Virus record (IMG/VR): IMGVR_UViG_3300005882_000015
Coordinates: 1 to 28,109 of that record
Origin: a virus
Reading direction: 5' to 3' (one strand)
Length of the DNA: 28,109 nt
Shown here one piece after another: positions 1,655-17,802 of the stretch; positions within the stretch are counted from its first letter, which is position 1; each line of letters begins with the position of its first letter. Below the pieces are notes generated by a model, which saw nothing but the letters and a program-made list of their open reading frames with translations, was not told the origin of the DNA and did not search any database. A program made the position numbers and the translations under genes.

Positions 1655-3185
1655 CCATCTCCTCCATCACGTCCGCAAACATCTTGCCCACCTCATCTTC
1701 CAGTGTATCACCCAGCGCTTTGCCTGCGCCGCCCTTGGATTGAGCGGGGGTGTAGACAAGGCCTTCTATCCAAGCAAAGCACACCGCGTCCCACAGGTCG
1801 GGGGACGCCATGCCCTCCCACTCCTTGCTGTGCTTGGGCGGCACGCGGATGCGCCCCTTGTCGGTGAAGGTCTTGGGAATGCGGCTCGATTGCGACAGCA
1901 TGGCGTTGCGGTGCTCGCCGGTGAGGATCGACAGCCGGCCCTCCTTGGCGGCGCGCGCGGCCTGGTGCATGGCCTGCGCGCGAAGGTTCAGGTAGCGCTC
2001 CTTGTTCCTGTTCTGGAAGCACGGATTACCCCAGTTGATGCGATGCAGCGGTTTACCCATGTCCTCCAGGTCCTGGCAGACGTTGATGCCCAGGCCACCG
2101 GAGTCGACGGCATAGGTCACACCGTCATAGGGGTCGCCCTGCTCGGCCACGGCGCCGGCAAAGACGTTGGCGCGCACGTTGTTGGTCACCACCGGCACGG
2201 TCACGATCTCCACGCGCCGCGCATCGGGTCCACGCTCGCCATAGCCGATGACCCGCGCCACGACGATGGTCGACTTGTCGCGCAGCCCCTCGCCGCTGGC
2301 GATATCGGACAGCACCACCCAGCCATAGGGCTCGTCGTCGCCGATGATGCGGCCGCGGCGATACATGGCCTCGGCCACGGGCAGATTCATCATGTGCTTG
2401 CCCGACTCCTGTGGGAACTGCCCCAGCAGGCGCACGCGGCGCTCGTCCTCGTCGTAGCTGTCCCACAGCTCCTTGAGGGCCTGGTCGCTGACCAGCGGTG
2501 ACTCCAGCGAGGAGAACACCAGCGGCGTCCAGTCGCCGCCGTTGAGATTGCTCAGGTCGTGATGCGTCCGGTAGAAGAACCCCGAGTTGCGGGTCGGCTG
2601 CGAGGTCAGCAGCATGCGGTTGTGTTCTTCGGTCAGGGCGCCGCGCAGCGTGGTCAGCACCGCGTCGGGCAGCGTCGACGCCTCGTCGCCGATGATCATC
2701 AGCCACTCACCGTGGCGGCCGGCCATCTTGTTGGCGGTCTTCTCGTTGGCGGTCTTGGACTCGACGAACCAGGTGTCGGGGAAGCCGATGATGCGCATCT
2801 GGCCGTTGGCCAGGATCTCGATATGGTCGGCGATCCAGCCGTAGGGCCCCTTGCGGATGCGCTCGACGGCCATGCCGATTTCCTTCCACAGCGTGGCCTT
2901 GAGCTGGGCCATGTCGTTGGCGGTCAGCAGGGTGATCGACTGCGGGTAGCAGAGCATGTGCCACAGCACGATGGTGGCCAGTGCCGTGGTCTTGCCCGTG
3001 CCGTGACCGGACGCCACCGACACCATGGAGCGCGACGGCGCCACGCTGTTGTAGAGCGTGATCTGCTGAGGCGTGGGCGGCAGCTCGACCACATCGATGG
3101 CGAAGCCCACCAGGTCACCGGCGAAGTCGTCGCTGAACTCCTCCCAGCGCGGATCCTCGTGCAGCAACGTGCGCTTGCTAGCCAT
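1647..3185 (-). CDS. terL: Terminase large subunit (ATPase and nuclease of DNA packaging)
   Basis: A 512-residue packaging motor protein that drives DNA into the prohead and cuts it. Walker A is GHGTGKTT at 60-67 with K65; Walker B is LMIIGDE at 162-168 with the catalytic E168; a coupling-like motif SQPTR lies at 195-199. The RuvC-like nuclease half shows acidic residues D294 (VLSDIASGEG), D361 (AVDSGGLG) and D463/D466 (SPDLWDA). Length is normal for the family. It overlaps the small-subunit gene by 8 bases (ATGGCTAG) and the HNH gene by 8 bases at the other end. Confidence 0.96.
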   Translation of the reverse strand: MASKRTLLHEDPRWEEFSDDFAGDLVGFAIDVVELPPTPQQITLYNSVAPSRSMVSVASGHGTGKTTALATIVLWHMLCYPQSITLLTANDMAQLKATLWKEIGMAVERIRKGPYGWIADHIEILANGQMRIIGFPDTWFVESKTANEKTANKMAGRHGEWLMIIGDEASTLPDAVLTTLRGALTEEHNRMLLTSQPTRNSGFFYRTHHDLSNLNGGDWTPLVFSSLESPLVSDQALKELWDSYDEDERRVRLLGQFPQESGKHMMNLPVAEAMYRRGRIIGDDEPYGWVVLSDIASGEGLRDKSTIVVARVIGYGERGPDARRVEIVTVPVVTNNVRANVFAGAVAEQGDPYDGVTYAVDSGGLGINVCQDLEDMGKPLHRINWGNPCFQNRNKERYLNLRAQAMHQAARAAKEGRLSILTGEHRNAMLSQSSRIPKTFTDKGRIRVPPKHSKEWEGMASPDLWDAVCFAWIEGLVYTPAQSKGGAGKALGDTLEDEVGKMFADVMEEMDG

Positions 3186-4161
3186 CGTCGACCTCGCCTG
3201 TCGCCCCGTCGATGATCAGCCCCAGGCGATCGGCACGGCTGCGCATCTCGCGCTCGACCTGCGCCGCCTTGGCCAGGGCGGCCTCGATGCGCTCCCGACG
3301 GGCTTCGCGGTCCACCAGTGCAATGCTGGGCTTCTCCTCGACCTCCACCTTGTCCTTCCACAGCTCGGGCTGGCGGTTCTTCAGCCAGAACTTGGCCGCC
3401 TCGGTATCCGGCGGGACGATCTCGGTGTAGGGCACGACGACCGGCTGCCCCTGGTACTGGAACACCTTCACCGCCTGGTGCGTGTAGCCGGTGGCCTTCT
3501 TGTACAGCGAGCGCGCCACGTTGGCGTCGGCATCGCCGCGCCCCTGCTCCATGGCGGCGCGGAACTCGGGATGGGCGGACATCCAGTCATAGACGGTCTG
3601 CTCGGTCACCTCCAGCAGGCTGGCGACGTGGGCGGGCGTCGCGCCCAGCAGGGCATGCTTGTAGGCCAGCCGGGCGTACTGGCGGCGGTACTTGGTGCGG
3701 CCCGAGGCGTCGGTCTCGTAGATCTCGTGCAGCGGGCTGTCGCCGAAGTCGTCCTCGAGCGAAATCGTGGTCACGCGCGTTAGGGTCAAGCCATGAAGTG
3801 GTGCGCCCTGCCCCTCCTCCCCCTCATCGAACGGTATGGAATCGGCCTCCTCCAGCGGCACCGCCTTGTCTGCGAGCTCCGGCGGCAGCTCCTCCAGCTC
3901 TTCGACCGGGGTTTCCGGTTTCTGGCTTGGTTTCCGGTTTCCGGTTTTCGCCTTGGGTTTCTGGGTTTTCGGTTTCCGGGCCGGTTTCACCCTGGCCTTG
4001 CCGCTGCCCTTGCACCATTCCTCCTTGAGGGCGCGCTTGCGCACGGCAGGGCCCGACACGTCGAGCCCCAGTTCCCGAATCAGCCAGGCATACCCGTCGC
4101 GGGAATCCGCCTCCCAGGTTTCTCTCGCCTTCTGCCACTGCTGCTCCGTCAACTTCGCCAT
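3178..4161 (-). CDS. terS: Terminase small subunit (packaging-site recognition)
   Basis: A 327-residue protein, longer than usual for small terminases. An N-terminal helical segment (about 5-50) resembles a first DNA-binding helix-turn-helix, then a Lys/Pro-rich linker (about 54-85) and an acidic stretch (about 86-118). A second helix-turn-helix lies at 175-200 (HVASLLEVTEQTVYDWM), followed by a helical C-terminus with KFWLKNRQPELWKDK, typical of small terminases. It sits directly upstream of terL with an 8-base overlap. The Lys/Pro linker is encoded by a striking repeat described separately. Confidence 0.87.
   Translation of the reverse strand: MAKLTEQQWQKARETWEADSRDGYAWLIRELGLDVSGPAVRKRALKEEWCKGSGKARVKPARKPKTQKPKAKTGNRKPSQKPETPVEELEELPPELADKAVPLEEADSIPFDEGEEGQGAPLHGLTLTRVTTISLEDDFGDSPLHEIYETDASGRTKYRRQYARLAYKHALLGATPAHVASLLEVTEQTVYDWMSAHPEFRAAMEQGRGDADANVARSLYKKATGYTHQAVKVFQYQGQPVVVPYTEIVPPDTEAAKFWLKNRQPELWKDKVEVEEKPSIALVDREARRERIEAALAKAAQVEREMRSRADRLGLIIDGATGEVDDG
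3910..3988. repeat. Array of GGTTTC repeats inside the small-terminase gene
   Basis: Seven exact GGTTTC hexamers start at 3910, 3917, 3929, 3936, 3956, 3971 and 3983, with two GGTTTTC variants between them. On the coding strand these read GAAACC and encode the Lys/Pro/Glu linker. In several phages the packaging start site lies within the small-terminase gene, so this is a candidate recognition array. It could also be only a low-complexity codon pattern. Confidence 0.5.
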
Positions 4162-4835
4162 CAGGTGTACACCAGCTCCAGTTCGGGTTGCACACCCCCG
4201 GCAGCGGCACGGGCCTCGCGATGCATGCGCTTCAGCTTCGACTCGGCGGTACGCCCGGTGGCGGCAGCGCGCTCGACGGCGGATTGCAACCGGGCTCCAC
4301 CCTTCACGTTCTCCCAGCGACGTGGGTTCAGCTCCTCGACCCGGGACAGGGCGTCTTGGGCTTCCTGAAGCTGTTGCGCCATGAGCATGGCCAGCTCCTC
4401 AACGGCCTCGACGCGCTCCTGCACCTCGCGGGTAACCAGCATGTCCCGCCAGCGGTGCCGCTCCCACTCCTCGCGCATCAGGATGATGGTGTCCCGGGCG
4501 GCGTGGCAGCGCCGCTCGTCGACCTCCATGTTCTCCGTGTTGCCCAGCAGGTAGTCGATGGACACGTCGTACAGCAGGGCGGCCCGCTTCACTACCCACA
4601 GCGGTATCTGTGAGCTGTCGCGACCACCCTCGATCTTGGCCAGCTTGGTAGAGTTGGCATAGCCCAGCAGCTGGGCAGCCTTGACCTGCGAATACCCCTG
4701 CATCTCGCGGGCTTCGCGCAGCCGCTCTCCCACCTTGCACGCCAGCAATACCTGCTCCTGGCGAGACGGGACACCGCGCCCACCCCGGCGCTTGCGTCCC
4801 ACTACCGCATTGGCTGCCGCTTCGACCTGCTCCAT
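4161..4835 (-). CDS. XRE-family DNA-binding protein, 224 residues
   Basis: A basic N-terminus (RKRRGGRG) is followed by an XRE helix-turn-helix at about 34-70, with VGERLREAREMQGYSQVKAA, LLGYANSTKLAKIEGGR and then IPLWVVKRAALLYDVSIDYLLGNTE, the usual five-helix fold ending. The C-terminal half (about 105-210) is charged and helical, probably a coiled coil for oligomerisation. Its stop shares one base with the terS start (TGATG). Position at the end of the nin-like segment and before the terminase suggests a regulator of late or packaging genes; this is inference. Confidence 0.75.
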   Translation of the reverse strand: MEQVEAAANAVVGRKRRGGRGVPSRQEQVLLACKVGERLREAREMQGYSQVKAAQLLGYANSTKLAKIEGGRDSSQIPLWVVKRAALLYDVSIDYLLGNTENMEVDERRCHAARDTIILMREEWERHRWRDMLVTREVQERVEAVEELAMLMAQQLQEAQDALSRVEELNPRRWENVKGGARLQSAVERAAATGRTAESKLKRMHREARAAAGGVQPELELVYT

Positions 4836-4848
4836 GCCACCCCCCGTG

Positions 4849-5046
4849 TCAGCTCAATGTGCCGTTGCTGTGCGCCTGCGCGGCCCGTTTCGCGGCGGCC
4901 GCATTGCCGCGCCACATGCCCAGCCGTTCATCGCCGGCATGCAGCTCGAACCACTCCTCGCCGGACAGCACCACCTTGGCAATGCGGTACTGCCCGGCCC
5001 GGATGCAGTAGCGGCTGACCTTCTGCCACTCGAGACCCGGCTTCAC
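4849..5046 (-). CDS. Small hypothetical protein, 65 residues, GTG start
   Basis: A GTG start at 5046 overlaps the stop of the resolvase gene (GTGA), giving VKPGLEWQKVSRYCIRAGQY and continuing with a compact predicted beta-rich domain (RIAKVVLSGEEWFELH) and an Ala/Lys-rich tail. The coupling and the codon bias in this frame support a real gene. It has no recognised function. The pattern of aromatic and charged residues resembles small phage proteins that sit among nin-region genes. Confidence 0.6.
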   Translation of the reverse strand: MKPGLEWQKVSRYCIRAGQYRIAKVVLSGEEWFELHAGDERLGMWRGNAAAAKRAAQAHSNGTLS

Positions 5047-5525
5047 GCTGCCCCCTTGGCCATGAGCTGGCGGCCGTACTCGGCCAGGCATACGGCGTCG
5101 GCGATGCCGTCGTGAGGTACCCGCTTCTTGCCCGGTGTGAGGTCGACCATGGGGAAGGCGCGCTTCACGAACGCGATGGCGGCGCCCTTGTCCTTGGCGG
5201 TACCGGCGAGCACACGCTTCTTCCAGGCCTGCGGGGTCACCAGGCGATACGGGATGCCCAGGGCCTCGCACACGCCCAGCAGGCGCCCATAGCCGGTGCC
5301 GAAGGTGAACATCGAGGTCCCGCCTTGGGGGCGGCCGTTGACCCGCGCGGCTCCGACCTTCTCGATGATCACCAGGTCAGGCGCGGTCGCGGTGAGGATC
5401 CGGGCCAGCTCGTGCCCATCGATCTCCTTGCCGATGATGGGCATCACGTCGCCGGACGCCTGGCCGGTGGCGTTGATGGAGGCGATGCCACCGGACTTGC
5501 CGGGGTCGATACCGATGATGTTCAT
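5043..5525 (-). CDS. RuvC-like Holliday junction resolvase, phage type
   Basis: A 160-residue RNase H-fold nuclease that would cleave four-way or branched DNA before packaging. The acidic catalytic set is visible: D7 in IDPGKSGG, E55 in LVIIEKV, and D139/D143 in HDGIADA. The central VTPQAWKK and KDKGAA motifs are also typical of RuvC-like phage resolvases. The start is set by a 4-base ATGA overlap with the upstream HNH gene. It takes the place of the Rap/NinG or RusA resolvases of other lambdoid phages. Confidence 0.9.
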   Translation of the reverse strand: MNIIGIDPGKSGGIASINATGQASGDVMPIIGKEIDGHELARILTATAPDLVIIEKVGAARVNGRPQGGTSMFTFGTGYGRLLGVCEALGIPYRLVTPQAWKKRVLAGTAKDKGAAIAFVKRAFPMVDLTPGKKRVPHDGIADAVCLAEYGRQLMAKGAA

Positions 5526-5869
5526 GCCGTGGCGCCCTCCCTGGCGTCGATGAAGGCGAGCGCGTGCGTCAGCTGCTCGCGGATGTCGGGGTCGTTGGCG
5601 AACTGGGCCAGGCCGGCACGGATCGTCTGCTGCAGCCACTCCACCTGCCAGGGCTGCCACTCGGCGCGCTGGTGGACCATGCGATGCGCCCACGGGGTCA
5701 GCGGCATCACGAACGAATCCGGGGCCTTGAGCCCCCAGCCGGACAGGCCCCACCCCAGCCCGATGACGTGGTGAGCCTCGCAGCCCTCCTCGCCGGTCAT
5801 GCAGCACGGCAGGCTGCGCACCCATGCCAGATAGCGCTCGCTGCGCCAGGCCTTGCTCTTGGCGATCAT
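5522..5869 (-). CDS. YbcO/DUF968-like zinc-HNH phage protein
   Basis: The start at 5869 is fixed by an ATGA overlap with ninB, giving 115 residues. It carries a Cys/His cluster: C22-C23, C30, H33-H34 (CEAHHVIG) and H62-x3-H66 (PWAHRMVH), with the 'HHVIGLGWGLSGWGLKAPD' pattern of DUF968/YbcO-type proteins in nin regions of lambdoid phages. These are thought to be structure-specific nucleases or recombination accessories. It lies between NinB and the resolvase, agreeing with a DNA recombination role. The exact family assignment is tentative. Confidence 0.75.
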   Translation of the reverse strand: MIAKSKAWRSERYLAWVRSLPCCMTGEEGCEAHHVIGLGWGLSGWGLKAPDSFVMPLTPWAHRMVHQRAEWQPWQVEWLQQTIRAGLAQFANDPDIREQLTHALAFIDAREGATA

Positions 5870-6324: not shown

Positions 6325-6833
6325 GTCTCGACGCCTCCGGCGGTCAACAGCTGCTTGCCGGTCTCCGCCAGCCAGAGGAGGTCGCCAGCCGCTCCCGCTT
6401 CCCCTTGCTCATACGCCGCGGTGGCTTGCTTCCATAGAGCCTGGTGCATGGCTGCGCAGCGGCTGACCAGCTCGGCCGGCATGGCGGCAGACTCCTGGCG
6501 AACAATGGTGACGATAGCGGTGGTGTCTGTTCCTTTGACGGGATCCACGCCCACGCTCTCCGGGGCGGGCTCGGGCTTGGCCTCCCCAGCCTGCTCGACG
6601 GCCTCCAGGTCGACAGTCATGCCGTGCACCGTCGGCAGCCAGGCGCCGTAAGCTACCCCTGCCAGCCCCTTGTCACGAAGGCGGCGCAGGGCACGGTTCA
6701 CGGCGCTCACCTCAGCCTGGCTCGCGGCATTGCAGCCAATGCAGATGATCCGTTCCGTGACGGGGCGCCGCGTCTGCCGGTGCTCATTGCGGATGACGCC
6801 CAGGGCCTCGCGCTCGTATCGCGTCATGGTCAT
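6321..6833 (-). CDS. Hypothetical phage protein with possible winged helix, 170 residues
   Basis: The start at 6833 overlaps the dnaC-like stop by 4 bases. The first 75 residues (RYEREALGVIRNEH..., ASQAEVSAVNRALRRLRDKGLAG) look like a winged-helix domain, with a recognition-type helix and a short wing. A Pro/Glu-rich linker follows (about 85-100), then a helical C-terminus. The CIGC motif (residues 31-34) could bind metal but has no clear partner. Position between the helicase loader and NinB suggests a replication or recombination accessory. I do not recognise the family. Confidence 0.65.
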   Translation of the reverse strand: MTMTRYEREALGVIRNEHRQTRRPVTERIICIGCNAASQAEVSAVNRALRRLRDKGLAGVAYGAWLPTVHGMTVDLEAVEQAGEAKPEPAPESVGVDPVKGTDTTAIVTIVRQESAAMPAELVSRCAAMHQALWKQATAAYEQGEAGAAGDLLWLAETGKQLLTAGGVET

Positions 6834-7650: not shown

Positions 7651-8640
7651 TCAGTCCCTCATCCAGTCGGGAAGGTTGTCCATGTCGGTCGGCGTGTAGG
7701 TGCCCTGCGGCTGCGGCTGGGCGAAGCCTTTGCGGCCGTCCAGGCGGCCAGGCTGGCGTGCCGCCGGGGGAATCCACTCGTTGTCGAACTCGGCGTTGGC
7801 GCCGAAGAACCGCTTGGCCTGCATCACGAACTCGGAGGCCTCGTCCCCCTTGGCGCGAACGTAGGCCGCATAGCGCTCGACGGCGGCCAGCATGTCGGCA
7901 GGGTCCACGCCCTCGGCGATACGGGCATTCCAGCACTCGAAGGCCGGTTTCTTGGGGTTGCTCCCGGCTCGCTTCGGGTAGGCCGACCAGGCGCGCTCGA
8001 ACACCTCGGTGTACTCAGGGCTGCGGCGCGCCTTGGTTTTCGCGGCGGTTTTCGGCTCGGGCTTGGGTTCGGCAGGCGGCGATGGCGTCAGCTCGAGCTC
8101 AGGCTGGTCGATCTCGGATGCACCACCCTCCGAACGAAGTGAGGAGGGGTTGTCTTTCCTGTCTTTAGAAGGGAGGTCAGATTGACCTGACTGAGATAGG
8201 TCAGATTGACCTGACTGAGGCTGTTTTGATTGCGGCGTTGGCGGGGTGTACTTGCCCGCTTGAAGCTCCCAGGTTTCCGCATGTTTGTTCAGGGAAACCG
8301 GAGAACGGCTGCCACCATGGCGAAGCAAGACCTTCTTCTCGATCAGGGATGCCATCACCTTGGCGCACGTCGATGCGTGGATGCCGGTCAGCTTGGCCAG
8401 CAGACCGCCGGTGACGCGCGCCTGCTTGCGATTCCAGCCATACGTCAGGCGAATGATGGCCATCACGACACGCATTTCGCGCAGCGTGAACGGGGCCGCC
8501 ATGACCTGCTCCAGGAGCTCGTTCGCGATCCTCGTGTATCCATCCTCCACTTGGGGCCCCTTTGGCGTTTCTGCGGGCGCCTGCGGCTCCTCTGGCGGCT
8601 GCTCATGGAAGCGCTCGGGGAACTTCAGCACGTTGCTCAT
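7651..8640 (-). CDS. Lambda O-like phage replication initiator
   Basis: A 329-residue protein whose N-terminal domain (about 33-130) matches the phage replication protein O family: DGYTRIANELLEQVMAAPFTLREMRVVMAIIRLTYGWNRK, then a winged-helix segment and SRSPVSLNKHAETW. The middle (about 135-205) is a disordered Gln/Ser/Pro/Lys linker with a duplicated QSGQSDL peptide, encoded by the iteron repeats. The C-terminal domain (about 210-300; RAWSAYPKRAGSNPKKPAF) would contact the helicase loader. It is followed at once by the dnaC-like gene, as O precedes P in lambda. Confidence 0.9.
   Translation of the reverse strand: MSNVLKFPERFHEQPPEEPQAPAETPKGPQVEDGYTRIANELLEQVMAAPFTLREMRVVMAIIRLTYGWNRKQARVTGGLLAKLTGIHASTCAKVMASLIEKKVLLRHGGSRSPVSLNKHAETWELQAGKYTPPTPQSKQPQSGQSDLSQSGQSDLPSKDRKDNPSSLRSEGGASEIDQPELELTPSPPAEPKPEPKTAAKTKARRSPEYTEVFERAWSAYPKRAGSNPKKPAFECWNARIAEGVDPADMLAAVERYAAYVRAKGDEASEFVMQAKRFFGANAEFDNEWIPPAARQPGRLDGRKGFAQPQPQGTYTPTDMDNLPDWMRD
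8174..8219. repeat. Two palindromic iterons inside the initiator gene; candidate replication origin
   Basis: Two identical 22-base copies lie at 8174-8195 and 8198-8219, with a 24-base period (exactly 8 codons). Each contains a perfect dyad, AGGTCA-GAT-TGACCT, followed by GACTGAG. The flank at 8150-8172 is relatively AT-rich for this DNA. In lambda the origin is a set of palindromic iterons within gene O, bound by O protein, so this is the likely origin here. Confidence 0.72.
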
Positions 8641-9386
8641 GCCGGCACCCCCGCAAAAGTCTCTGCCAGCTTCGCCAGGCCTTTGCGGGTGACTCTGGCC
8701 TGCTCGCTCACCTTCTCGTTGCCATCTTCAAGCGGAACAACCGTCACCTTGTGCTCGAGCACGCCCTGCTGGAGGCGAGCCTGGTACGCCACAAGCCTCT
8801 TGTTGCCGACGCGGCGGTAGATCCACTTATGCGCCTGCATCCAGGCGATCAGGTCCTTGGGGCGAACCTGAAGATGCTTGGCGGCATCGGTCAGGCACAG
8901 CGAGCCCTCGCTTTCCGCGATGCGCTGGAAGGCCTGAACCTTGGGCGCCTGCTCGGAAACGGTGGACTCCAGGGCCAGCACCTTCTCCGTGTAGCCCAGC
9001 AGCAGCTCGCGCATGGTGGCCGGATCGGAGAGCGCCTGAAGCGGGTCCGCGGCGGCCGGAGCCTGCATGGCGTCGTAGGCACGAATCACCTTGAGATGGA
9101 ACGCGGGACTGACCCACATCGCGTAGGCGTAGACCAACTCCTTGCAAACGTAGGTACCGGGAGCCCTCCCCCCGCGGATAGACGCCAAAGCAGGAATTCC
9201 TGCTTTGCCTATTTCTTCAACCAGAGCCTGGGTTTGTTGGTTCTCCGCCCACAGGGAGGGGCGGTGCCGATTCTCCCCGCCCGAAGCCCTGTGCAGGTCA
9301 TTCAGGCAGAAGCGCCCTTCTGCATCTTGACGGACGTCGACGCCAGCTACGGCTAGCAACTGGACGTTTGGCGATTTAGCGTTCAT
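8637..9386 (-). CDS. KilA-N and ANT domain phage antirepressor-type protein
   Basis: A 249-residue protein. Residues about 20-108 form a KilA-N domain (CLNDLHRASGGENRHRPSLW, then TYVCKELVYAYAMWVSPAFHLKVIRAYDAM). Residues about 147-225 form an ANT/KilAC domain (SEGSLCLTDAAKHLQVRPKDLIAWM, WIYRRVGNKRLVAYQ). Proteins of this kind bind DNA and often act as antirepressors. The start at 9386 has GGAG 6 bases upstream. It overlaps the initiator gene by 4 bases, so it is coupled to replication genes; its target is unknown. Confidence 0.9.
   Translation of the reverse strand: MNAKSPNVQLLAVAGVDVRQDAEGRFCLNDLHRASGGENRHRPSLWAENQQTQALVEEIGKAGIPALASIRGGRAPGTYVCKELVYAYAMWVSPAFHLKVIRAYDAMQAPAAADPLQALSDPATMRELLLGYTEKVLALESTVSEQAPKVQAFQRIAESEGSLCLTDAAKHLQVRPKDLIAWMQAHKWIYRRVGNKRLVAYQARLQQGVLEHKVTVVPLEDGNEKVSEQARVTRKGLAKLAETFAGVPA
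9186..9207. repeat. Perfect 22-bp palindrome within the KilA-N gene
   Basis: Eleven-base arms, CAAAGCAGGAA and its exact complement, meet with no spacer. It encodes residues around KAGIPAL between two parts of the KilA-N domain. A palindrome this long is not expected by chance in a window of this size. It may be a protein-binding or cruciform site; there is no direct evidence for either. Confidence 0.6.
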
Positions 9387-9412
9387 AATCATCTCCATAC
9401 ATGAAGTGACAT

Positions 9413-9446
9413 CAACGCCCCGCGGTGCCAGCCGATCGGGGCGTTG
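9413..9446 (-). promoter_or_regulatory. Strong hairpin in the leader of the KilA-N gene
   Basis: Perfect 10-base arms (CAACGCCCCG at 9413-9422 and its complement at 9437-9446) enclose a 14-base loop. It lies between the 81-residue helix-turn-helix gene and the KilA-N gene. There is no T-run on either strand, so it is not a classic terminator. It may be an attenuator or a transcript-stability element, or a protein-binding dyad. Confidence 0.45.
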
Positions 9447-9459
9447 TTGTGTCCGGGGG

Positions 9460-9705
9460 TTACCCGGCGTTTTGCACATCGGAAACCTCAACCGCCTCCC
9501 CGGCCTCAAGCCGAGAGAGCTCCGACGTGCTGATGCCCGCCAGGTCGGCGAGCACTCGGCGGTAATGTTGGGCACGGCGCTTGGGCTGCGCGGGAAGCCC
9601 CTTGGTACGCCAATGCCATGGAGTGGCGTGGTGGACATCGCAAGCCGCCGCCAGGCGACCATTGCCCACCACGTCGATCAGCTCTGACACGCTGGAAACA
9701 ATCAC
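9460..9705 (-). CDS. Small helix-turn-helix regulator (YdaS/Cro-like), 81 residues
   Basis: A GTG start at 9705 is preceded by GGAGGG at a 6-base spacing and lies 3 bases after the upstream gene's stop. The pattern ELIDVVGNGRLAAACDVHHATPWHWRTKGLP resembles YdaS-type or Cro-like folds: a helix, a turn and a recognition helix with aromatic residues, followed by helices HYRRVLADLAGISTSELSRLEAG. Lambda has CII in the comparable place. It is likely a transcription regulator of the early operon; no target is known. Confidence 0.68.
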   Translation of the reverse strand: MIVSSVSELIDVVGNGRLAAACDVHHATPWHWRTKGLPAQPKRRAQHYRRVLADLAGISTSELSRLEAGEAVEVSDVQNAG

Positions 9706-9708
9706 GGG

Positions 9709-10332
9709 CTACCCTCCGCTCTTGGCCACCGCCAGGCGAACGCCGGGGTTACGTCCCAGCACCTTGCGCTCGATCAGTGAGCGCGTGCTCATCAGCGCGA
9801 CGATGGCGTCGTCAATTTCGGCCAGCGCCTCATCGGCCATGGGAAGGTCTGCCGGGCTCAACTTGTTGTCGTGAAGCATTCGCGACATGACGGCCATCAC
9901 GTCGCCGGTTTCTCGGCTCACCTCGCCCAGTGCGGCAAACCCGCAGGAAATCTCATCCCCGCTCTCGGGTCGCTTTACCCCCATGAAGCCGTGGCGGCGC
10001 GTCAGGCTGACGCGAGCAAAGTCGTCGCCGAACACCTCAAGCGCTGCACACCAGGGCTCCTCCAGCCAGGCCGGGAACTCAACGGCACCGCTGGCCCAGC
10101 GCTGCACGCGCTTGGCCCAGCTCATCACCGCGTGGTCGTACTCGTCCCCTACGGCGGTGAAACCATCCAGATCGGGCAGGTGAAGGTCGGCCGCCTTGGC
10201 CGGGCAGCACGCCATCACCTGGCGGTTGAGTTCACGAGCAAAGCGCTCGCAGGCGATGCCGCGCTGCTCACGCAGGCGGCCCAGGGCATCACGCAGCAGG
10301 GCATCTCGGCTGGGGTGTCGGGTTTCGGACAT
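9709..10332 (-). CDS. Hypothetical early phage protein, 207 residues
   Basis: The start at 10332 has AAGGAG 8 bases upstream. The N-terminal part (DALLRDALGRLREQRGIACERFARELNRQVM) is helical and charged. The middle contains RVQRWASGAVEFPAWLEEPWCAALEVFG, which looks like the end of a DNA-binding domain found in phage regulatory proteins that contact operators near cro. The C-terminus is helical (about 150-190). Being second in the Cro transcript suggests a regulator, perhaps with a CII-like role, but I do not recognise the family. Confidence 0.65.
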   Translation of the reverse strand: MSETRHPSRDALLRDALGRLREQRGIACERFARELNRQVMACCPAKAADLHLPDLDGFTAVGDEYDHAVMSWAKRVQRWASGAVEFPAWLEEPWCAALEVFGDDFARVSLTRRHGFMGVKRPESGDEISCGFAALGEVSRETGDVMAVMSRMLHDNKLSPADLPMADEALAEIDDAIVALMSTRSLIERKVLGRNPGVRLAVAKSGG

Positions 10333-10365
10333 AGCAGGGGCTCCTTGCTCTGAATAGGGTGAAGG

Positions 10366-10572
10366 TCAGGCGGCGCTCGGCGGAAAAACGTCGTCGATGG
10401 ACACGTTGACGCCTCTGCTGCGGATAGCGGCGACGATTTTTCTAACTACCTCGAAGCTCGGCGTGCGCGCCCCAGACTCGTAATTGGCTATTGCTGACTG
10501 ACCCAGCCCGCACGCCTCAGCAAGCTCGCGCTGCGTCATGTTTGCCTTGGATCGGAGGGTGCGGATGTTCAT
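10366..10572 (-). CDS. Cro-like XRE repressor, 68 residues
   Basis: A small protein that is almost entirely an XRE helix-turn-helix: TQRELAEACGLGQSAIANYESG at about 13-34, then RTPSFEVVRKIVAAIRSRGVNVSIDDVFP. GAGGTG lies 5 bases before the ATG. It is the first gene of the leftward operon and faces the CI-like repressor gene across a shared operator region, the usual place of Cro. It would bind the same operators and favour lytic growth. Confidence 0.88.
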   Translation of the reverse strand: MNIRTLRSKANMTQRELAEACGLGQSAIANYESGARTPSFEVVRKIVAAIRSRGVNVSIDDVFPPSAA

Positions 10573-10598
10573 GTCATCACCTCAGGATGTTTCGCCTG

Positions 10599-10626
10599 AG
10601 AATATCACATTTTGTGGTTTCATCAA
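10599..10626 (-). promoter_or_regulatory. Promoter of the leftward cro/replication operon
   Basis: Read on the minus strand, TTGATG (complement of 10621-10626) is followed after 16 bases by TATTCT (complement of 10599-10604). Each matches 4 of 6 consensus bases. One operator dyad (10601-10619) lies between and over these elements, so repressor bound there would block RNA polymerase. The start of transcription would be about 10592, giving a short leader to the cro ATG. Confidence 0.62.
10601..10619. promoter_or_regulatory. Operator 1 of the cI-cro region
   Basis: On the minus strand it reads AACCACAAAATGTGATATT, fitting the form AAMCAC-N5-GTGATATT shared with two sites near 12.93-12.97 kb. 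Its CAC-N5-GTG core is a dyad centred at 10611. It overlaps the leftward promoter. It is the most strongly supported of the three sites in this region because the same 19-bp form recurs 2.3 kb away. Confidence 0.68.
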
Positions 10627-10641
10627 TCACGAATCGTCGAG
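10625..10641. promoter_or_regulatory. Operator 2 of the cI-cro region (weak match)
   Basis: AATCAC-GAATC-GTCGAG has a CAC-N5-GTC core centred at 10633, 22 bases from operator 1. One core base differs from the dyad. Its regular spacing between two better sites is the main reason to list it. Confidence 0.42.
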
Positions 10642-10647
10642 TGACTT

Positions 10648-10664
10648 AATCACGCAGCGTGTTA
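10648..10664. promoter_or_regulatory. Operator 3 of the cI-cro region
   Basis: AATCAC-GCAGC-GTGTTAA contains a perfect CACGC-A-GCGTG dyad and the CAC-N5-GTG core, centred at 10656, 23 bases from operator 2. It is the site nearest the repressor gene. By analogy with lambda OR3, occupancy here could control cI expression; that is inference. A weak plus-strand promoter (GTGACT at 10641, TAACAA at 10663) overlaps it. Confidence 0.52.
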
Positions 10665-10735
10665 ACAATGGAGGGCATATTGCTGCGCCGCTCGCGGGAG
10701 GCGCAGGCAAGCAGCCAGGAAACGGAGGGGAATGC

Positions 10736-11407
10736 GTGGGAGGGTCGATCGGCGAGAGGATCAAAGCAGCCAGGCAGAGAGCCGGAATGACTCAGCCAGA
10801 GCTAGCTAAGGCGTGCGGCTGGGACAGCCAAGGCCGCGTCTCTAACTACGAGCGCGGTTTGCGAGAGCCAAAAAGCAACGATGTCACTGCTATCGCCAAG
10901 GCGCTTGGGGTGAGCGAAAGCTACCTTTGGACTGGCGAAGGCAAAGAGGCTGCGGCTGTCATCGGCCATTCTGCTGGGCAAGAGTCCAATATTACCCCCG
11001 CCCCTCAAGCCACTGGCATGTGCCCAGAAATCAGCTGGGTACAGGCCGGTGCCTGGACCGAGGTCTGCCACGTCGAGCGGGACCCAGAAGCCATCACCTG
11101 GCACCCCCGCCCTGCCGGAGCCTCCGAGCAGACCTTCGTGCTCAGGGTGGTTGGCGAATCCATGGCGCCTGAGTACCTGCCGGGCACGCTGATCTATGTC
11201 GACCCGGAGCGCGCGCCAGAGAACGGCAAGGACGTAGTGGCGGTCATGACCGAAACTGGCGAGGCAACGTTCAAGCGGCTGATCGAGGAACCGGGGCATG
11301 GCCGCATGCTCAAAGCGCTGAACCCGGTCTGGCACGAGCCTTACATCAAGATCAACGGCAACTGCCGCGTGGTAGGCGTGGTAGTTGCTGACATGCGATT
11401 GCGCTGA
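10736..11407 (+). CDS. CI-like prophage repressor with S24/LexA self-cleavage domain
   Basis: The GTG start at 10736 has GGAGG seven to eight bases upstream and gives 223 residues; upstream codons in the frame run through the operator region and are not used. Residues 5-65 are an XRE helix-turn-helix (MTQPELAKACGWDSQGRVSNYERG). Residues about 98-223 are an S24 peptidase domain with cleavage site A104-G105 (WVQAGAW), nucleophile S142 (GESMAPEYLPG) and general base K180 (ATFKRL). It should keep the phage silent by binding the operators and be inactivated through RecA-stimulated self-cleavage after DNA damage. Confidence 0.94.
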   Translation: MGGSIGERIKAARQRAGMTQPELAKACGWDSQGRVSNYERGLREPKSNDVTAIAKALGVSESYLWTGEGKEAAAVIGHSAGQESNITPAPQATGMCPEISWVQAGAWTEVCHVERDPEAITWHPRPAGASEQTFVLRVVGESMAPEYLPGTLIYVDPERAPENGKDVVAVMTETGEATFKRLIEEPGHGRMLKALNPVWHEPYIKINGNCRVVGVVVADMRLR

Positions 11408-11417
11408 AGGAGTTCAC

Positions 11418-12260
11418 ATGGAAGTCGAGCAGTTCAAGGCTCTCTTTGGAGATGCGCAGACACTCCCGAAAGATATAGAGGCCATCCACCAACTGTTTTT
11501 CGAGAAAGGCATTCCTTGTCTTGAGGTGTCGAAAACGCCACAGCTCAATGCGCACAGCCTTATCCATCCAGCGGCTGATGCTGGGCAAACTATTATTGAG
11601 CGCCTGGAAGGATCGCCAGCGCAGAGCATTACTCTTGTCGTTATCGAGAAGGCCGAGTTTTGTCCAGATAAATACGAAAGGACGGCCATCGGCTATAACC
11701 CACGCCACCACTTCAGCTTTCTGTTTGGCGCTGATACGCCCGAGGAAAACGCTCACAAAGAGCACAAGGCGTTGGCCAACAAGCCGCTGGGGATAACTAC
11801 CTACCTGTTCGCCGAGAATGGGCTGTGCTTCGCTTACAAGCGCGCTTCGTGGCAATCTCTCGTGTTGGGCCAAACCGATGAAGACCCCTTCATCGACGAT
11901 GAATACGATGACCCTCTTTACGACGAAGCCGAGGAAGCGGCTTACCAGGAGCGCCAAGAGAAGGTCTTAGAGCTGGGGCACGAGTTGGCCCACGCCCCTG
12001 GCTGGGGGTTATGCAGCAATCACCAACAACGCCTCTATTTCGCAGACAAGTTCTTTGCTAACCACGATGGCGTTGAGCAAGATCACCTATACGGTGCCGT
12101 TGAAAGAGCCAATATCATTTTCGATATGGAGGTACTTCCCGAAAAGGTGGCCCTCCTTCATAAGAACGGCAAGACTCCGAAAGAAATCTCGGCTGAAACC
12201 GGATGTAGCCAAGCCAAGGCGAAGCGAATTATTGCTCAGCTGGTTTCACAGGAGGCCTAA
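11418..12260 (+). CDS. Unrecognised protein co-transcribed with the repressor, 280 residues
   Basis: The ATG is 5 bases after AAGGAG and 10 bases after the repressor stop, so it should be expressed in lysogens. The N-terminal half (1-150) looks like an alpha/beta domain. An acidic segment follows (about 154-174, PFIDDEYDDPLYDEAEE). H188-E-L-A-H192 fits an HExxH metal-binding pattern, but a third ligand is not clear. The C-terminus (about 240-277, VALLHKNGKTPKEISAETGCSQAKAKRIIAQL) is a helix-turn-helix. Its GC content is lower than in surrounding phage genes. Candidates are an immunity, exclusion or anti-phage factor; no family is recognised. Confidence 0.72.
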   Translation: MEVEQFKALFGDAQTLPKDIEAIHQLFFEKGIPCLEVSKTPQLNAHSLIHPAADAGQTIIERLEGSPAQSITLVVIEKAEFCPDKYERTAIGYNPRHHFSFLFGADTPEENAHKEHKALANKPLGITTYLFAENGLCFAYKRASWQSLVLGQTDEDPFIDDEYDDPLYDEAEEAAYQERQEKVLELGHELAHAPGWGLCSNHQQRLYFADKFFANHDGVEQDHLYGAVERANIIFDMEVLPEKVALLHKNGKTPKEISAETGCSQAKAKRIIAQLVSQEA

Positions 12261-12496
12261 TGACCGAAGACTACGAGAAGCGCATTGCCAAGCTCGAGGC
12301 TGCCATGCGTGATGTGATGGCAATCACTGCCGGACTGGCGGAATCCGGGCTGGAGCTGTCTGTTATTGCCAAGAATAGCGAAAACGCAGAGGAGCGAGTT
12401 CGTGGCGAGCGCGCCTTTCAAAGTATTGGCACCATTCTCGACCACCTGGAAGCGCTCGAAAAGAGCTTCCCGCCAAAGGAGAAAGCCGGTGACTGA
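12260..12496 (+). CDS. Small helical protein of the repressor operon, 78 residues
   Basis: The start codon shares one base with the previous stop (TAATG). The protein is a charged helix from end to end (DYEKRIAKLEAAMRDVMAITAGLAESG, then ILDHLEALEKSFPPK), probably a short coiled coil. It lies in the repressor operon ahead of a membrane-anchored coiled-coil protein, so the two may work together. No function is recognised. Confidence 0.65.
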   Translation: MTEDYEKRIAKLEAAMRDVMAITAGLAESGLELSVIAKNSENAEERVRGERAFQSIGTILDHLEALEKSFPPKEKAGD

Positions 12497-12824
12497 TCAC
12501 AAGGTGACCGACATTCGCGACCGCTGGACCAGCGAGCAGGCCCAGAGTGCCGACGCCCGGCGTGACAAAGCACGGCGTGATGGCGACAATGGGGGCAACG
12601 GAGGAGAGCCGCCCATGAATGACCTGACCGCACGAGTTGAACACCTGGAGCGCGATGTCACTGACATCAAGGTGACGCTTGCCGGCATCTCGACAAAGCT
12701 CGATGGCTTTGCCACCAAGACTGAGCTGGCCCAGATGGAGGCCCGTATCATCAAGTGGAACGTTGGCACGCTGCTGGCCGTGGGCGGCCTGGTTTTCGCC
12801 ATCATGCGCTTCCTGCCCGCCTAG
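12489..12824 (+). CDS. Coiled-coil protein with C-terminal membrane anchor, 111 residues
   Basis: A GTG start at 12489 overlaps the upstream gene by 8 bases and has AAAGGAG 6-7 bases before it. Residues about 45-85 form a coiled coil (LTARVEHLERDVTDIKVTLAGISTKLDGF), and the last 20 residues (VGTLLAVGGLVFAIMRFL) are a single membrane segment. XhlA-type and DUF1640-like phage proteins have this plan. Since it ends the repressor operon it would be made in lysogens; a membrane protein here could act in superinfection exclusion, which is inference. Confidence 0.7.
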   Translation: MTDHKVTDIRDRWTSEQAQSADARRDKARRDGDNGGNGGEPPMNDLTARVEHLERDVTDIKVTLAGISTKLDGFATKTELAQMEARIIKWNVGTLLAVGGLVFAIMRFLPA

Positions 12825-12855
12825 CCCCAAGAAAGCCCACAGAACCCCACCACCA

Positions 12856-12877
12856 CCCGCCGCCCGGCGGGTTTTTT
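12856..12877 (+). terminator. Intrinsic terminator of the repressor operon
   Basis: CCCGCC at 12856-12861 pairs with GGCGGG at 12866-12871 around a GCCC loop, followed directly by six T residues. It lies 31 bases after the last gene of the operon and ahead of the next promoter, separating lysogenic from early transcription. Confidence 0.92.
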
Positions 12878-12926
12878 GTTGCCTGCAACTTTCTGATTTC
12901 AAAGAGAGCGTGATATTTTACCTAAA

Positions 12927-12945
12927 AATATCACATAACGTGGTT
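12927..12945. promoter_or_regulatory. Operator upstream of the plus-strand early promoter
   Basis: The minus strand reads AACCACGTTATGTGATATT, identical in plan to operator 1 (AAMCAC-N5-GTGATATT). Its centre is 12937. It overlaps the first bases of the TTGACA promoter element. An extra GTGATATT half-site at 12910-12917 forms a 10-base inverted repeat with this site (arms 12910-12919 and 12925-12934). Confidence 0.72.
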
Positions 12946-12972
12946 GACAGGTAAAACACGATGCGTGATATT
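12944..12972 (+). promoter_or_regulatory. Early promoter of the plus-strand recombination operon (pL-like)
   Basis: A perfect TTGACA at 12944-12949 is followed after 17 bases by GATATT at 12967-12972 (4 of 6 bases of the -10 consensus). Transcription would begin near 12979. Operators overlap both elements, so the repressor should shut it in lysogens. It is placed to drive the genes from 13325 onward. Confidence 0.78.
12954..12972. promoter_or_regulatory. Operator overlapping the -10 of the early promoter
   Basis: AAACACGATGCGTGATATT fits AAMCAC-N5-GTGATATT on the plus strand, centred at 12962, 25 bases from the neighbouring operator. It covers the -10 element. Confidence 0.7.
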
Positions 12973-13008
12973 TACCCCAACAGCACGGCACGCAGCCCAC
13001 TGGATCAC

Positions 13009-13022
13009 CGCTCTTTCACAAT
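13009..13022 (+). promoter_or_regulatory. boxA-like antitermination element
   Basis: CGCTCTTTCACAAT matches the Escherichia coli rRNA boxA (TGCTCTTTAACAAT) at 12 of 14 positions and also contains the CGCTCTT start of lambda boxA. It would lie about 30 bases from the 5' end of the early transcript and is followed by a hairpin after 12 bases. NusB/NusE bind such an RNA in known systems. Confidence 0.68.
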
Positions 13023-13030
13023 CCGCGATC

Positions 13031-13289
13031 CCCTCCCCCTGGGGCCACAAGGGGGCACCACCCGAGAAACCGGGCAGGTGGGCACGGCCTCACCCGTATG
13101 AGGAACGACACTCCAACAGCATTGGCTCTGTCGTCGCGGGGCGCTCCCTAAGAGAGGTGGGGGCGCGGCCTGGCAGCCGCCGGCGCGACCGGCAGCCGTG
13201 CCAAAAGCCCCTGGCAACAGGGGCCATCGAGATGCTTCCTGCCCCTGCCTGCCATGGGACCAGGGGAAGCGCCAGGGAGCATCTCGATG
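13031..13289 (+). ncRNA. Structured leader RNA: run of hairpins, candidate nut/put-like element
   Basis: This stretch has no convincing gene but holds several hairpins in a row: CCCCCT 13035-13040 with AGGGGG 13050-13055; CCCG 13061-13064 with CGGG 13071-13074; GCCGG 13179-13183 with CCGGC 13189-13193 inside TGGCA/TGCCA; GCCCCTG 13207-13213 with CAGGGGC 13218-13224 closed by a GCAA tetraloop; and a long stem of 17 positions, 13225-13241 with 13273-13289 (one G-U pair). The last two abut. They sit between the early promoter and the first gene. Known phage parallels are lambda boxB (Nut) and HK022 put RNAs; the assignment is inference. Confidence 0.5.
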
Positions 13290-14429: not shown

Positions 14430-14707
14430 TGATGAAAACCCGTATCGCTGGCATCCCCTGCCTGGTGGATGTCACCAGCTACACCCCGGCCGACCCGGGC
14501 AGCTTCTTCGAGCCGCCCAGCGGTCCGGAGAACGAGTACGAGGTCTACGATCGCCGCGGCTACAAGGCGGGCTGGCTGCTGTCCAAGCTCACCGACGCCG
14601 ACGACGACGCCATCCTGGAGCAGTACGAAGCCAGCCTACGCGAAAGCCGAGACCAGGCACGCATCGATGCCTACATCGACAGCCTGGAAGCCCGCGCCTG
14701 GGCATGA
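14429..14707 (+). CDS. Hypothetical phage protein, 92 residues
   Basis: The start at 14429 overlaps the upstream stop (TGATG) and has GGAGG 6 bases before it; the ATG at 14432 is an alternative. The N-terminus (RIAGIPCLVDVTSYTPADPGSF) and middle (NEYEVYDRRGYKAGWL) look like a small beta-barrel-like domain, followed by an acidic helix. Proteins with this pattern are frequent beside phage exonuclease genes, but their role is unknown to me. Confidence 0.7.
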   Translation: MMKTRIAGIPCLVDVTSYTPADPGSFFEPPSGPENEYEVYDRRGYKAGWLLSKLTDADDDAILEQYEASLRESRDQARIDAYIDSLEARAWA

Positions 14708-14741
14708 AAAAGCCCCACCCCAGTAGGCGCTGGAGTGAGGC
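14707..14741 (-). terminator. Leftward intrinsic terminator antisense to the early operon
   Basis: On the minus strand a 12-pair hairpin (two G-U pairs; arms complement to 14730-14741 and 14712-14723) is followed by TTTTT. On the plus strand the same stem has two C-A mismatches and no T-run, so the signal favours leftward transcription. It lies between the 92-residue gene and the exonuclease gene. It would stop antisense RNA coming from the right. Confidence 0.55.
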
Positions 14742-14793
14742 CCGTTGCAGTGACCGACAACCGATATCGATTCACCCGAACGAGGATAGCACC

Positions 14794-15885
14794 ATGAGCA
14801 TGACCATTGAACAAGCAAAGCACGAGCTGATCACCAACCATCGCGTCGCCACCCTGGATATGCCCGAGGAGGTCTGGCTGTCGCTGCGCGGGCTGGGCAT
14901 CGGGGCCAGCGAGGCCGCGGCAGCCGTCGGGGCCAGCGAGCACCGCACGCCGTTCGAGATCGCCGAGCGCAAGCTGGGGCTGGCCGCCGACGACGCCGAC
15001 GCCAACTACCGCCGCCGTCAGAAGATGGCCATGGGCCACGTCATGGAGCCGGTGACCGCGTCACGCTTCGCCGAGTTCACCGGGCTCAATGTCCAGAACT
15101 TCAACTGCATGCTGGCCCACCCCGAGCACCCCTTCATGCTGGCCAACATCGACCGCCGCATTGTCGGCGTCACCGATGCCCAGTCGGCCTGGCTCGAGCT
15201 GGTCATGGGCCAGACGGTGAAGGGGCCTGGCGTGGCCGAGCTCAAGAACGTCGAGTTCGCCAAGGGCTGGGGCAAGCCGGACAACGTCCACACCACCGGC
15301 GGGCTGTGCACCACCGGCGAGGTGCCGGAGGATTACTTCATTCAGGTACAGCACCAACTGGCCGTCACCGGCTACGAGTGGGGCTTCCTGGTGGTGACCA
15401 TCGCCGGCTGGGAGACCCGCTGGTACCCCATCCTGCGCGATGACGACCTGATCGATGACCTGATCGCCCTGGAAGGCGAGCTGTGGGCCACCATCCAGCG
15501 CGGCGAGCTGCCGGAGATCGATGTCGAGCACCCCAAGGCCGTCGAGCTGCTCAAGCGCCTTTACCCGGGCACCGACGGCAGCATGGTCGACCTGGCCGAG
15601 CTCGAGCACTGTCGCAAGGTCGAGCAGCAGGCCAAGGAGGAGATCAAGGCCCTGGAGACCACCGCCAAGGTGGCACGAGCCCGCATCCTCAAGGCCATGG
15701 GCGACGCCGCGGTGGCCACCTTCGGCGACGACCAGGTGATGCGCCGCAAGGTGGTGAAGCGCAAGGCCTACACCGTCGAGGTCGGCGAGAGCGAGTACGT
15801 CGATATCCGCTACGGGAAGATGAACAAGGCCGAGAAGGACCAGCTGGCTACCCAGAGCGAACACGAGACCGAGGAGGCGGCCTGA
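14794..15885 (+). CDS. YqaJ-family viral exonuclease (lambda Exo-like recombinase)
   Basis: A 363-residue nuclease that should resect double-stranded DNA ends for the RecT annealing protein. The fold signature is RGLGIGASEAAAAVG at 32-46, with E85 (GHVMEP), D120 (MLANIDRRIVG) and E149-x-K151 (VAELKNVEF) as the PD-(D/E)XK active site, then YFIQVQHQLAVTG. The C-terminal 100 residues are a helical extension. The start at 14794 has GAGGA about 8 bases upstream; the longer frame from 14704 runs through the minus-strand terminator and is not used. Confidence 0.93.
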   Translation: MSMTIEQAKHELITNHRVATLDMPEEVWLSLRGLGIGASEAAAAVGASEHRTPFEIAERKLGLAADDADANYRRRQKMAMGHVMEPVTASRFAEFTGLNVQNFNCMLAHPEHPFMLANIDRRIVGVTDAQSAWLELVMGQTVKGPGVAELKNVEFAKGWGKPDNVHTTGGLCTTGEVPEDYFIQVQHQLAVTGYEWGFLVVTIAGWETRWYPILRDDDLIDDLIALEGELWATIQRGELPEIDVEHPKAVELLKRLYPGTDGSMVDLAELEHCRKVEQQAKEEIKALETTAKVARARILKAMGDAAVATFGDDQVMRRKVVKRKAYTVEVGESEYVDIRYGKMNKAEKDQLATQSEHETEEAA

Positions 15886-15886
15886 C

Positions 15887-16180
15887 ATGGGCGAGGTCAC
15901 CGTCATCCCCAAGCGGCGGCCGGCACCTGCCGAGCCGCCTCGCCTGCCGCCCCGCGAGCTTGCGCGGACCTTCATCATCCAGCAGTACAGCGACGGGCAC
16001 TTCGACGTGATCGAAGGCGACCGCCGCGTCGACCGTCTCGCCTGGGACGAGATGCTGGGCCATGTGGCCCAGCTCACACACCGCCAGCTCGGCAGCCCTC
16101 TCTACGCCATGCGCACGCCCGATGAGGAGTTCGAACGCGAAGCCCTCATCCGTGGATACGTCAAAAGGAGCGAATCATGA
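15887..16180 (+). CDS. Hypothetical protein between exonuclease and RecT, 97 residues
   Basis: It starts one base after the exonuclease stop, with GGAGG overlapping the exonuclease end, and overlaps recT by 4 bases. A proline-rich head (KRRPAPAEPPRLPPREL) precedes a compact domain (FDVIEGDRRVDRLAWDEMLGHVAQLTH) and ends RTPDEEFEREALIRGYVKRSES. Its coupling to both recombinases suggests an accessory role in the same complex. No family is recognised. Confidence 0.7.
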   Translation: MGEVTVIPKRRPAPAEPPRLPPRELARTFIIQQYSDGHFDVIEGDRRVDRLAWDEMLGHVAQLTHRQLGSPLYAMRTPDEEFEREALIRGYVKRSES

Positions 16181-17199
16181 CCACCGACACCCAGACCGCC
16201 GAAGCCGTCCAGCAGCAGAGCCTGCAGGAGCCGGAGTTCCACGCCCCGGCCGCGGCCGAATCCTCCAGCGACGTCGAGCTGGCGAGCAACGAGGTGCGCA
16301 ACCAGTTCATGAAGGCCATGACGCCGCGCACCTTCGATGACGTGTGGCGCATGTCCGACATGATCGCTCAGAGCGACCTGGCGCCGAAGGACTACAAGGG
16401 CAAGCCCGGCAACGTGATGATCGCCTGGCAGACGGGCGTCGAGCTGGGTATCACCAGCCCGCTGCAAGCCATCCAGAACATCGCGGTGATCAACGGCCGG
16501 CCCACCATCTGGGGCGACATGATGCTGGCCATCTGCCGCGCGGCACCAGCCTGGTCCGAGGCCGACTTTCAGGAGTGGATCGAGGGCGAAGGCGCCCAGA
16601 TGGTCGCCAACTGCACGGTGCGCCGCCGGCCGAACGGCAACGTCGCCCACTACACCTTCAGCATGGCCGATGCCAAGGACGCCGGGCTGCTGGGCAAGCA
16701 AGGGCCCTGGCAGCAGTACCCCAAGCGCATGCTGCAAATGCGCGCCCGCGGCTTCGCGCTGCGCGACACCTTCACCCCGGAGCTGAAGGGCATCCGCATG
16801 GCCGAGGAGGAGCGCGATATCACCCCCGAGGCCGGGCAGCCCGCCCAGCAGGCGCCCGCCAACGGCGGCCAGCAGCAGCGCGCCGGTACCGCCGGACGGG
16901 TCGGCGACAAGCTGGCCCAGCGCCGCCAGAAGGCCCAGCAGCAACGCCAGGCCCGGGAGGTCTACGAGACCACGGCCGAGCCCAAGGCGGACGACACGCC
17001 GCCGGAGGGCGCCGGCCCCGGCGGCGAGATCACCTGCGCCTACGTCTGCGAGCAGATCAAGAAGGCCACCACCCGGGACGAGATGGCCGAGGCCATCGAC
17101 CTGGCCCGCCACGTGCCGGAATCCGACCACGGCGTGGTTAACGAGGCCTACAAGGCGCGCCTGGCAACGCTCAAGCAGCAGGCCGAAGGCGGCCAGTAA
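16177..17199 (+). CDS. recT: RecT-family single-strand annealing protein
   Basis: A 340-residue annealase. The RecT core runs about 35-215: LAPKDYKGKPGNVMIAWQTGVELGITSPLQAIQNIAVINGRPTIWGDMM, then WPQQYPKRMLQMRARGFALRDTF-like sequence (here GPWQQYPKRMLQMRARGFAL). The C-terminal third (about 216-285) is Gln/Ala/Pro-rich and disordered, ending in a helical domain (ITCAYVCEQIKKATTRDEMAEAI) of the kind that contacts SSB or the partner nuclease. With the exonuclease it forms a two-component recombination system. Confidence 0.95.
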   Translation: MTTDTQTAEAVQQQSLQEPEFHAPAAAESSSDVELASNEVRNQFMKAMTPRTFDDVWRMSDMIAQSDLAPKDYKGKPGNVMIAWQTGVELGITSPLQAIQNIAVINGRPTIWGDMMLAICRAAPAWSEADFQEWIEGEGAQMVANCTVRRRPNGNVAHYTFSMADAKDAGLLGKQGPWQQYPKRMLQMRARGFALRDTFTPELKGIRMAEEERDITPEAGQPAQQAPANGGQQQRAGTAGRVGDKLAQRRQKAQQQRQAREVYETTAEPKADDTPPEGAGPGGEITCAYVCEQIKKATTRDEMAEAIDLARHVPESDHGVVNEAYKARLATLKQQAEGGQ

Positions 17200-17209
17200 C
17201 CCACCACCA

Positions 17210-17230
17210 GGGCGGCCCGCGCGGCCGCCC
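17210..17230 (+). promoter_or_regulatory. Intercistronic hairpin before ssb
   Basis: GGGCGGCC at 17210-17217 pairs perfectly with GGCCGCCC at 17223-17230 around a CGCGC loop. No T-run follows. It lies in the 48-base gap between recT and ssb. Confidence 0.6.
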
Positions 17231-17247
17231 GCCAACAAGGAATCACC

Positions 17248-17802
17248 ATGGCCAGAGGCGTCAACAAGGTCATCCTTATCGGCAACCTGGGGCAGGATCC
17301 GGAGGTGCGCTTCATGCCCTCAGGCAACCCGGTCGCCAACCTGAGGCTGGCCACCACCGACAGTTGGATGGACCGCCAGAGCGGCCAGCGCCAGGAGCGC
17401 ACCGAATGGCATAGCGTCGTGCTGTTCAACAAGACGGCCGAAATCGCCCAGCAGTACCTTCGCAAGGGCTCCAAGGTCTACATCGAGGGCCGCCTACAGA
17501 CCCGCAAGTGGCAAGGGCAGGACGGCCAGGACCGTTACAGCACGGAGATCGTCGCCAACGACATGCAGATGCTCGACTCGCGCGGCGACCAGCAGGGGCA
17601 GTCGGCCGGCGGCTACGGCGGCCAGCCACAAGGCGGCTACGGCCAGGGCGGCCAGCAGCAGCGCCGGCCGCCGCCTCAGAGTCAGCCGCCCGGCTACGGC
17701 GCCCCGCCGCCCAACCAGGCCCCGCAAGGCGGAGGTGGCGGCTTCGACGACTTCAACGGCGAGATCCCGTTCGCCCGGTTCCCGAATATCGCCGGGGGCT
17801 AG
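17248..17802 (+). CDS. ssb: Single-stranded DNA-binding protein
   Basis: A 184-residue SSB. The OB fold spans about 1-110 ([55 protein letters not shown]). The linker is Gly/Gln/Pro-rich. The tail is unusual: acidic residues and IPF appear ([10 protein letters not shown]) but are followed by ARFPNIAGG, so the usual free C-terminal phenylalanine is buried nine residues from the end. That tip normally docks host recombination enzymes. AAGGA precedes the ATG. Confidence 0.96.

Follow-up and report, generated by a model that had tools for sequence, protein, structure and literature searches.

Organization of the immunity region

The window analyzed here is the whole 28,109-base stretch of DNA, a 28-kb virus fragment, and all motif searches cover its full length. 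A gene for a CI repressor (10736–11407, plus strand) and a gene for a Cro-like HTH protein (10366–10572, minus strand; Pfam HTH_3, 2e-14) are arranged divergently, with an array of putative operators in between. Downstream of cro follows a gene for a CII-like activator (9709–10332, minus strand; phrog_4834, 2.3e-26), and further leftward genes encode an antirepressor-like protein (8637–9662), an O-like replication protein (7651–8640), a RuvC-like protein (5043–5825) and the terminase (1647–4161). A second HTH regulator-like gene (4161–4835, minus strand) adjoins the terminase small subunit gene.

On the other side, cI is followed by three rightward ORFs (11418–12260, 12260–12496 and 12615–12824). 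The first of them encodes 280 amino acids, occupies the rexAB position and contains the sequence HELAH, which is HExxH-like; searches of Pfam, PHROGs and NCBIfam returned nothing significant for it. A terminator-like stem (12855–12872) lies between the last of these ORFs and a second cluster of putative operators, OL. Genes for a RecE/YqaJ nuclease, a RecT-like protein and an SSB (14704–17802, plus strand) form the operon that the promoter at OL, pL, would drive. The gene order is thus that of lambda, pR-OR-cI-(rex position)-OL-pL-recombination genes: early genes of CII and O type follow cro, and recombination genes follow pL.

The CI protein combines an HTH (approx. residues 5–65; Pfam HTH_3/HTH_31) with an S24 self-cleavage domain (Peptidase_S24, 6.5e-23). 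Its nearest solved structure is intact lambda CI, 3bdn, with which it aligned in a phmmer search (E 3.9e-11). In alignment A1 the candidate catalytic residues S142 and K180 are invariant, and A104-G105 is the candidate cleavage bond. The nearest CI relatives with named records sit in Halomonas genomes, and relatives with the same CI HTH were found in the family of one Halomonas CI relative, from which we conclude that this temperate phage probably has a Halomonas host.

Operator-like sites at OR and OL

Three close copies of a 19-bp motif built around CAC-N5-GTG had been described in the sequence-only reading, each over a promoter. The copies are exact and lie at 10601–10619 (minus), 12927–12945 (minus) and 12954–12972 (plus), and they are the sole matches in the window even if three mismatches are allowed. 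The accompanying promoters were found at OL and not at OR. At OL, a near-consensus, rightward pL-like promoter, TTGACA-N17-GATATT (12944–12972, plus strand; 10 of 12 matches), has its -35 region abutted and overlapped by the upstream operator and its -10 region covered by the downstream operator. The operators of OR recur in this way at another early promoter, located past the cI operon. No promoter of the OR region exceeded the scan threshold, and the pR and pRM hexamers appeared weak by eye, so that both promoters are only presumed.

The OR array consists of the cro-proximal site OR1 (AACCACAAAATGTGATATT, 10601–10619), the weak site OR2 (10623–10641, no strand assigned) and the cI-proximal site OR3 (10646–10664, no strand assigned), which contains the core CACGCAGCGTG. 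Their CAC triplets at 10606, 10628 and 10651 are spaced regularly by 22 and 23 bp. The two looser dyads and the spacing noted earlier therefore exist, with the dyads beginning at 10628 and 10651 instead of the three bases upstream (10625 and 10648) given for them. In OR2 one half is intact (CAC) and the other reads GTC; this GTC half lies near the presumed pRM -35 region.

Only two sites scored at OL, and a third was not detected by the position matrix described below. Upstream of them a lone half-site, GTGATATT, is present at 12910–12917. It belongs to an inverted repeat (12910–12935; GTGATATTTT-ACCTA-AAAATATCAC), in which the left half of the upstream OL site forms the right arm. The half-site in the left arm may be the remnant of a third, decayed OL site.

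Just downstream of pL, the window contains a boxA-like sequence, CGCTCTTTC (13009–13017, plus strand), as its sole exact match to CGCTCTTWM. The six relatives with the same CI HTH carry the boxA-like sequence GCTCTTTAA downstream of pL, and in several relatives the element after pL reads GCTCTTTAACA, resembling the ribosomal boxA. The position of the element and its ribosomal form in relatives suggest that the pL operon is subject to nut-type antitermination. A comparison with Rfam gave no match in the window.

Specificity of the operator motif

Plain pattern counts were too weak to decide whether the motif exceeds chance. With as many as three mismatches allowed, the 19-bp pattern was expected 0.76 times in shuffled windows and occurred at least three times in 5 of 100 shuffles. 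The bare CAC-N5-GTG dyad was found 11 times over the window against 9.6 expected, which is the chance level. An independent matrix was therefore built from phages outside the window. A tBLASTn search with the CI HTH identified named phages with HTH regions 42–48% identical to that of the window, which carry CAC-N5-GTG arrays in the cI-cro region and at the distal early promoter. The 19 columns of the matrix were derived from 26 operators of the enteric and Aeromonas phages mEp213, GF-2, mEpX1, S107 and pAEv1818, with the window excluded.

The five sites at OR and OL took ranks 1 to 5 of the window: OR1 (CAC at 10606, 24.0 bits), the upstream OL site (12932, 21.1 bits), the downstream OL site (12957, 20.1 bits), OR3 (10651, 19.4 bits) and OR2 (10628, 10.0 bits). 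The sixth-best score was 6.9 bits. In shuffled windows the best score averaged 9.6 (maximum in 100 shuffles: 22.7) and the second best 7.3, and the mean of the real top four was reached by none of 300 column-permuted matrices. The motif search proposed from the sequence thus revealed no equally good copies elsewhere in the 28,109-base window.

Conservation in relatives with the same CI HTH

The OR and OL sites of the window recur in six loci, each from a prophage or a virus contig, that have its CI HTH type (L033 to L036, L037 = L013 and L014 = L010). All six display OR1, OR2 and OR3 at steps of approx. 22–23 bp and two OL sites 24–25 bp apart with TTGAC in between. This pL TTGAC occupies the same place in all relatives and also in the heteroimmune siblings L004 and L005. 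OR1 is kept in the relatives, and the cI-side half of OR2 is GTC instead of GTG in the window and in L033–L037, five of the six relatives; in L014 OR2 is normal and OR3 degenerate. The distance from OR1 to OL is 2.33 kb in the window and 1.24, 1.55, 2.39, 2.55, 3.67 and 4.50 kb in the six relatives. It ranges from approx. 0.5 to 4.5 kb over all relatives including the enteric and Aeromonas phages; its exact value is therefore not conserved.

Three further loci with an HTH 49–56% identical to that of the window (L038–L040) had no clear operator array and were not counted as support. The K-12 DicA locus, considered as a relative, has an HTH 39% identical and no such sites and served as a negative. 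The exact composite OL pattern had no match in viral contigs, and a direct DNA search with the immunity region of the window returned no match among named phages.

Comparison with phages of another HTH type

In seven loci (L004–L008, L011 and L012) CI has the C-terminal domain in common with the window but not the HTH. These loci lack the sites of the window, with one above-threshold match in 74 kb. In L010/L014 the CI C-terminal domain has diverged (approx. 33–35% overall identity), the HTH type is the same and the sites are present.

The closest comparison is provided by L004. Its DNA is 92.9% identical to the window at 9357–10379, 90.4% at 10995–12309, a stretch that includes the ORF at 11418–12260, and 83.2% at 12803–13235. 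Identity falls to 31–40% over cro, OR and the cI HTH (10380–10994) and to 43% over OL (12893–12979), the immediate flanks of which are 90–95% identical. L004 accordingly differs from the window in its Cro, its CI HTH and its operators at both clusters. It has an ATGCAT-type operator of its own at each of them (L004 positions 4888–4960 and 6659–6720), which represents a second immunity type, while TTGACAGG is retained in its pL. Approx. 0.5 kb of window DNA between 12309 and 12803 is missing from L004, so that a loop would be shorter there. In L007 and L008, likewise, the OR motif of these loci is repeated beside a distal TTGAC.

The patterns in L004, L007/L008 and L010 indicate that at both clusters the type of operator goes with the CI HTH. 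As judged from these alignments, the heteroimmune pair of the window and L004 provides strong evidence that the CI HTH reads both clusters. We slightly favor the further reading that two small separated cassettes, one comprising cro, OR and the cI HTH (approx. 615 bp) and one the OL operators alone (approx. 87 bp), have been replaced in concert to switch the immunity type within this phage group, leaving unchanged the C-terminal part of CI, the gene next to cI and the TTGACA of the promoter, and that selection maintains the GTC half of OR2 as a tuned weak site.

A probable lambda-type switch

The sites, their conservation, the OL promoter and the pairing of each operator type with a CI HTH type can all be read from the DNA, and on this basis the five sites are very probably the operators of one lambda-type lysis/lysogeny switch and the predicted targets of CI and Cro. 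The OR/OL logic of lambda, proposed earlier for this phage, is supported by the gene order, the common operators, the CI domains, the six relatives and the paired replacement in L004.

Homology provides the model for binding, the order of site filling and the steps that follow. CI dimers would bind the three OR sites in the cro-cI interval and, over the distal rightward early promoter, both OL sites. In a lysogen, CI would shut off leftward cro-cII-O and rightward RecE/RecT transcription and would regulate pRM from OR2 and OR3, with activation from OR2. During lytic growth Cro, which belongs to the same HTH subgroup, would occupy the same sites, and SOS-triggered self-cleavage of CI at the Ala-Gly bond would end both blocks at the same time. 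CI may also hold OR and OL in a loop of approx. 2.3 kb.

Such looping is plausible and, as a rough estimate, moderately favored. The geometry is compatible with it and resembles that of lambda, in which two sets of three operators lie approx. 2.3 kbp apart (PMC5880393). This likeness is not itself evidence, because the spacing varies among the relatives over the range given above. Matched clusters flank cI in every examined phage with the HTH type of the window, and the C-terminal domain of CI can be aligned with the domain through which lambda CI forms tetramers and octamers. Both points speak against the less probable but still substantial alternative that the sites are CI/Cro operators with OR and OL acting independently, CI binding each promoter region alone and no loop being formed. 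That alternative would fit the widely varying OR-OL distance and the presence of just two clear OL sites. It also has a precedent in phage 933W, whose repressor is reported to lack cooperative binding to adjacent sites (PMC3317979).

It is improbable that the main protein acting at the sites is Cro or another phage HTH regulator, such as the 4161–4835 protein, instead of CI. The Cro proteins are also related among phages with the operator type of the window, and L004 replaces cro together with the cI HTH; however, L004 keeps the CI C-terminal domain and changes precisely the HTH when the operators change, and the placement at OR and OL is that of CI targets. Since Cro and CI are expected to use common sites, this reading is only a partial rival. 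That the dyads arose by chance, or that they form the site of a host regulator, can practically be dismissed: the bare dyad occurs at chance frequency and CRP sites use similar GTGA/TCAC words, but the independent matrix ranking, the conservation and the paired swap stand against both, and a CRP-like site was rejected on polarity, the window sites reading TCAC-N5-GTGA, opposite to the CRP site TGTGA-N6-TCACA.

Relation to known systems

The lambda-type switch favored here is of a known kind, a lambda-type OR/OL immunity region, to which the window adds a member. It is like lambda in its divergent cro and cI, three OR sites, S24-type CI and similar spacing, and in the location of OL on a distal early promoter behind the genes downstream of cI, with recombination genes after pL. 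It is unlike lambda in the operator sequence, in having two clear OL sites instead of three, in the unrelated ORFs that replace rexAB and in the conserved half-site defect of OR2.

CAC-N5-GTG operators at OR and OL are shared with mEp213, mEpX1, ECP1, Edwardsiella GF-2, Salmonella S107 and Aeromonas pAEv1818. Where compared, their CI HTH is 42–48% identical to that of the window and their Cro 50–51% (GF-2, S107, mEp213 and mEpX1, all with the same operator type). These enteric and Aeromonas phages differ in their hosts and in an OR-OL distance of approx. 0.5–2.5 kb; the first five have three OL sites, whereas pAEv1818, like the window, has two. The telomere phages N15 and phiKO2 (immB) also combine three OR with two OL operators, and their prophage repressor binds each of the five (PMC4997575), so three OL sites were not taken to define a lambda-type immunity region. 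They differ from the window in their 16-bp operators with a T-A-N10-T-A motif, in a CB repressor without self-cleavage residues and in an OL that controls repA (PMC4997575). In the PaaR2/YdaS switch of CP-933P, CI-like and Cro-like regulators work through related sites at PR, PRM and a distal PL (PMC8630535); its operator sequence, toxin-antitoxin genes and regulators are different.

A study of co-transfer in lambdoid phages found that cI and cro move together, and its main text makes no mention of operators (PMC9836094). Searches of the freely accessible literature on CI operators of halomonad phages and on mEp213 operators returned nothing naming this CAC-N5-GTG operator. The region described here carries the logic of lambda's two operator sets over to halomonad prophages and comes with a defined operator. 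The concerted replacement of two cassettes, if true, would constitute a natural minimal immunity swap. The window and L004 form a closely related heteroimmune pair in which operator sets approx. 2 kb apart have changed together, which makes the claim that both sets must match one repressor, and the origin of such double exchanges, directly testable.
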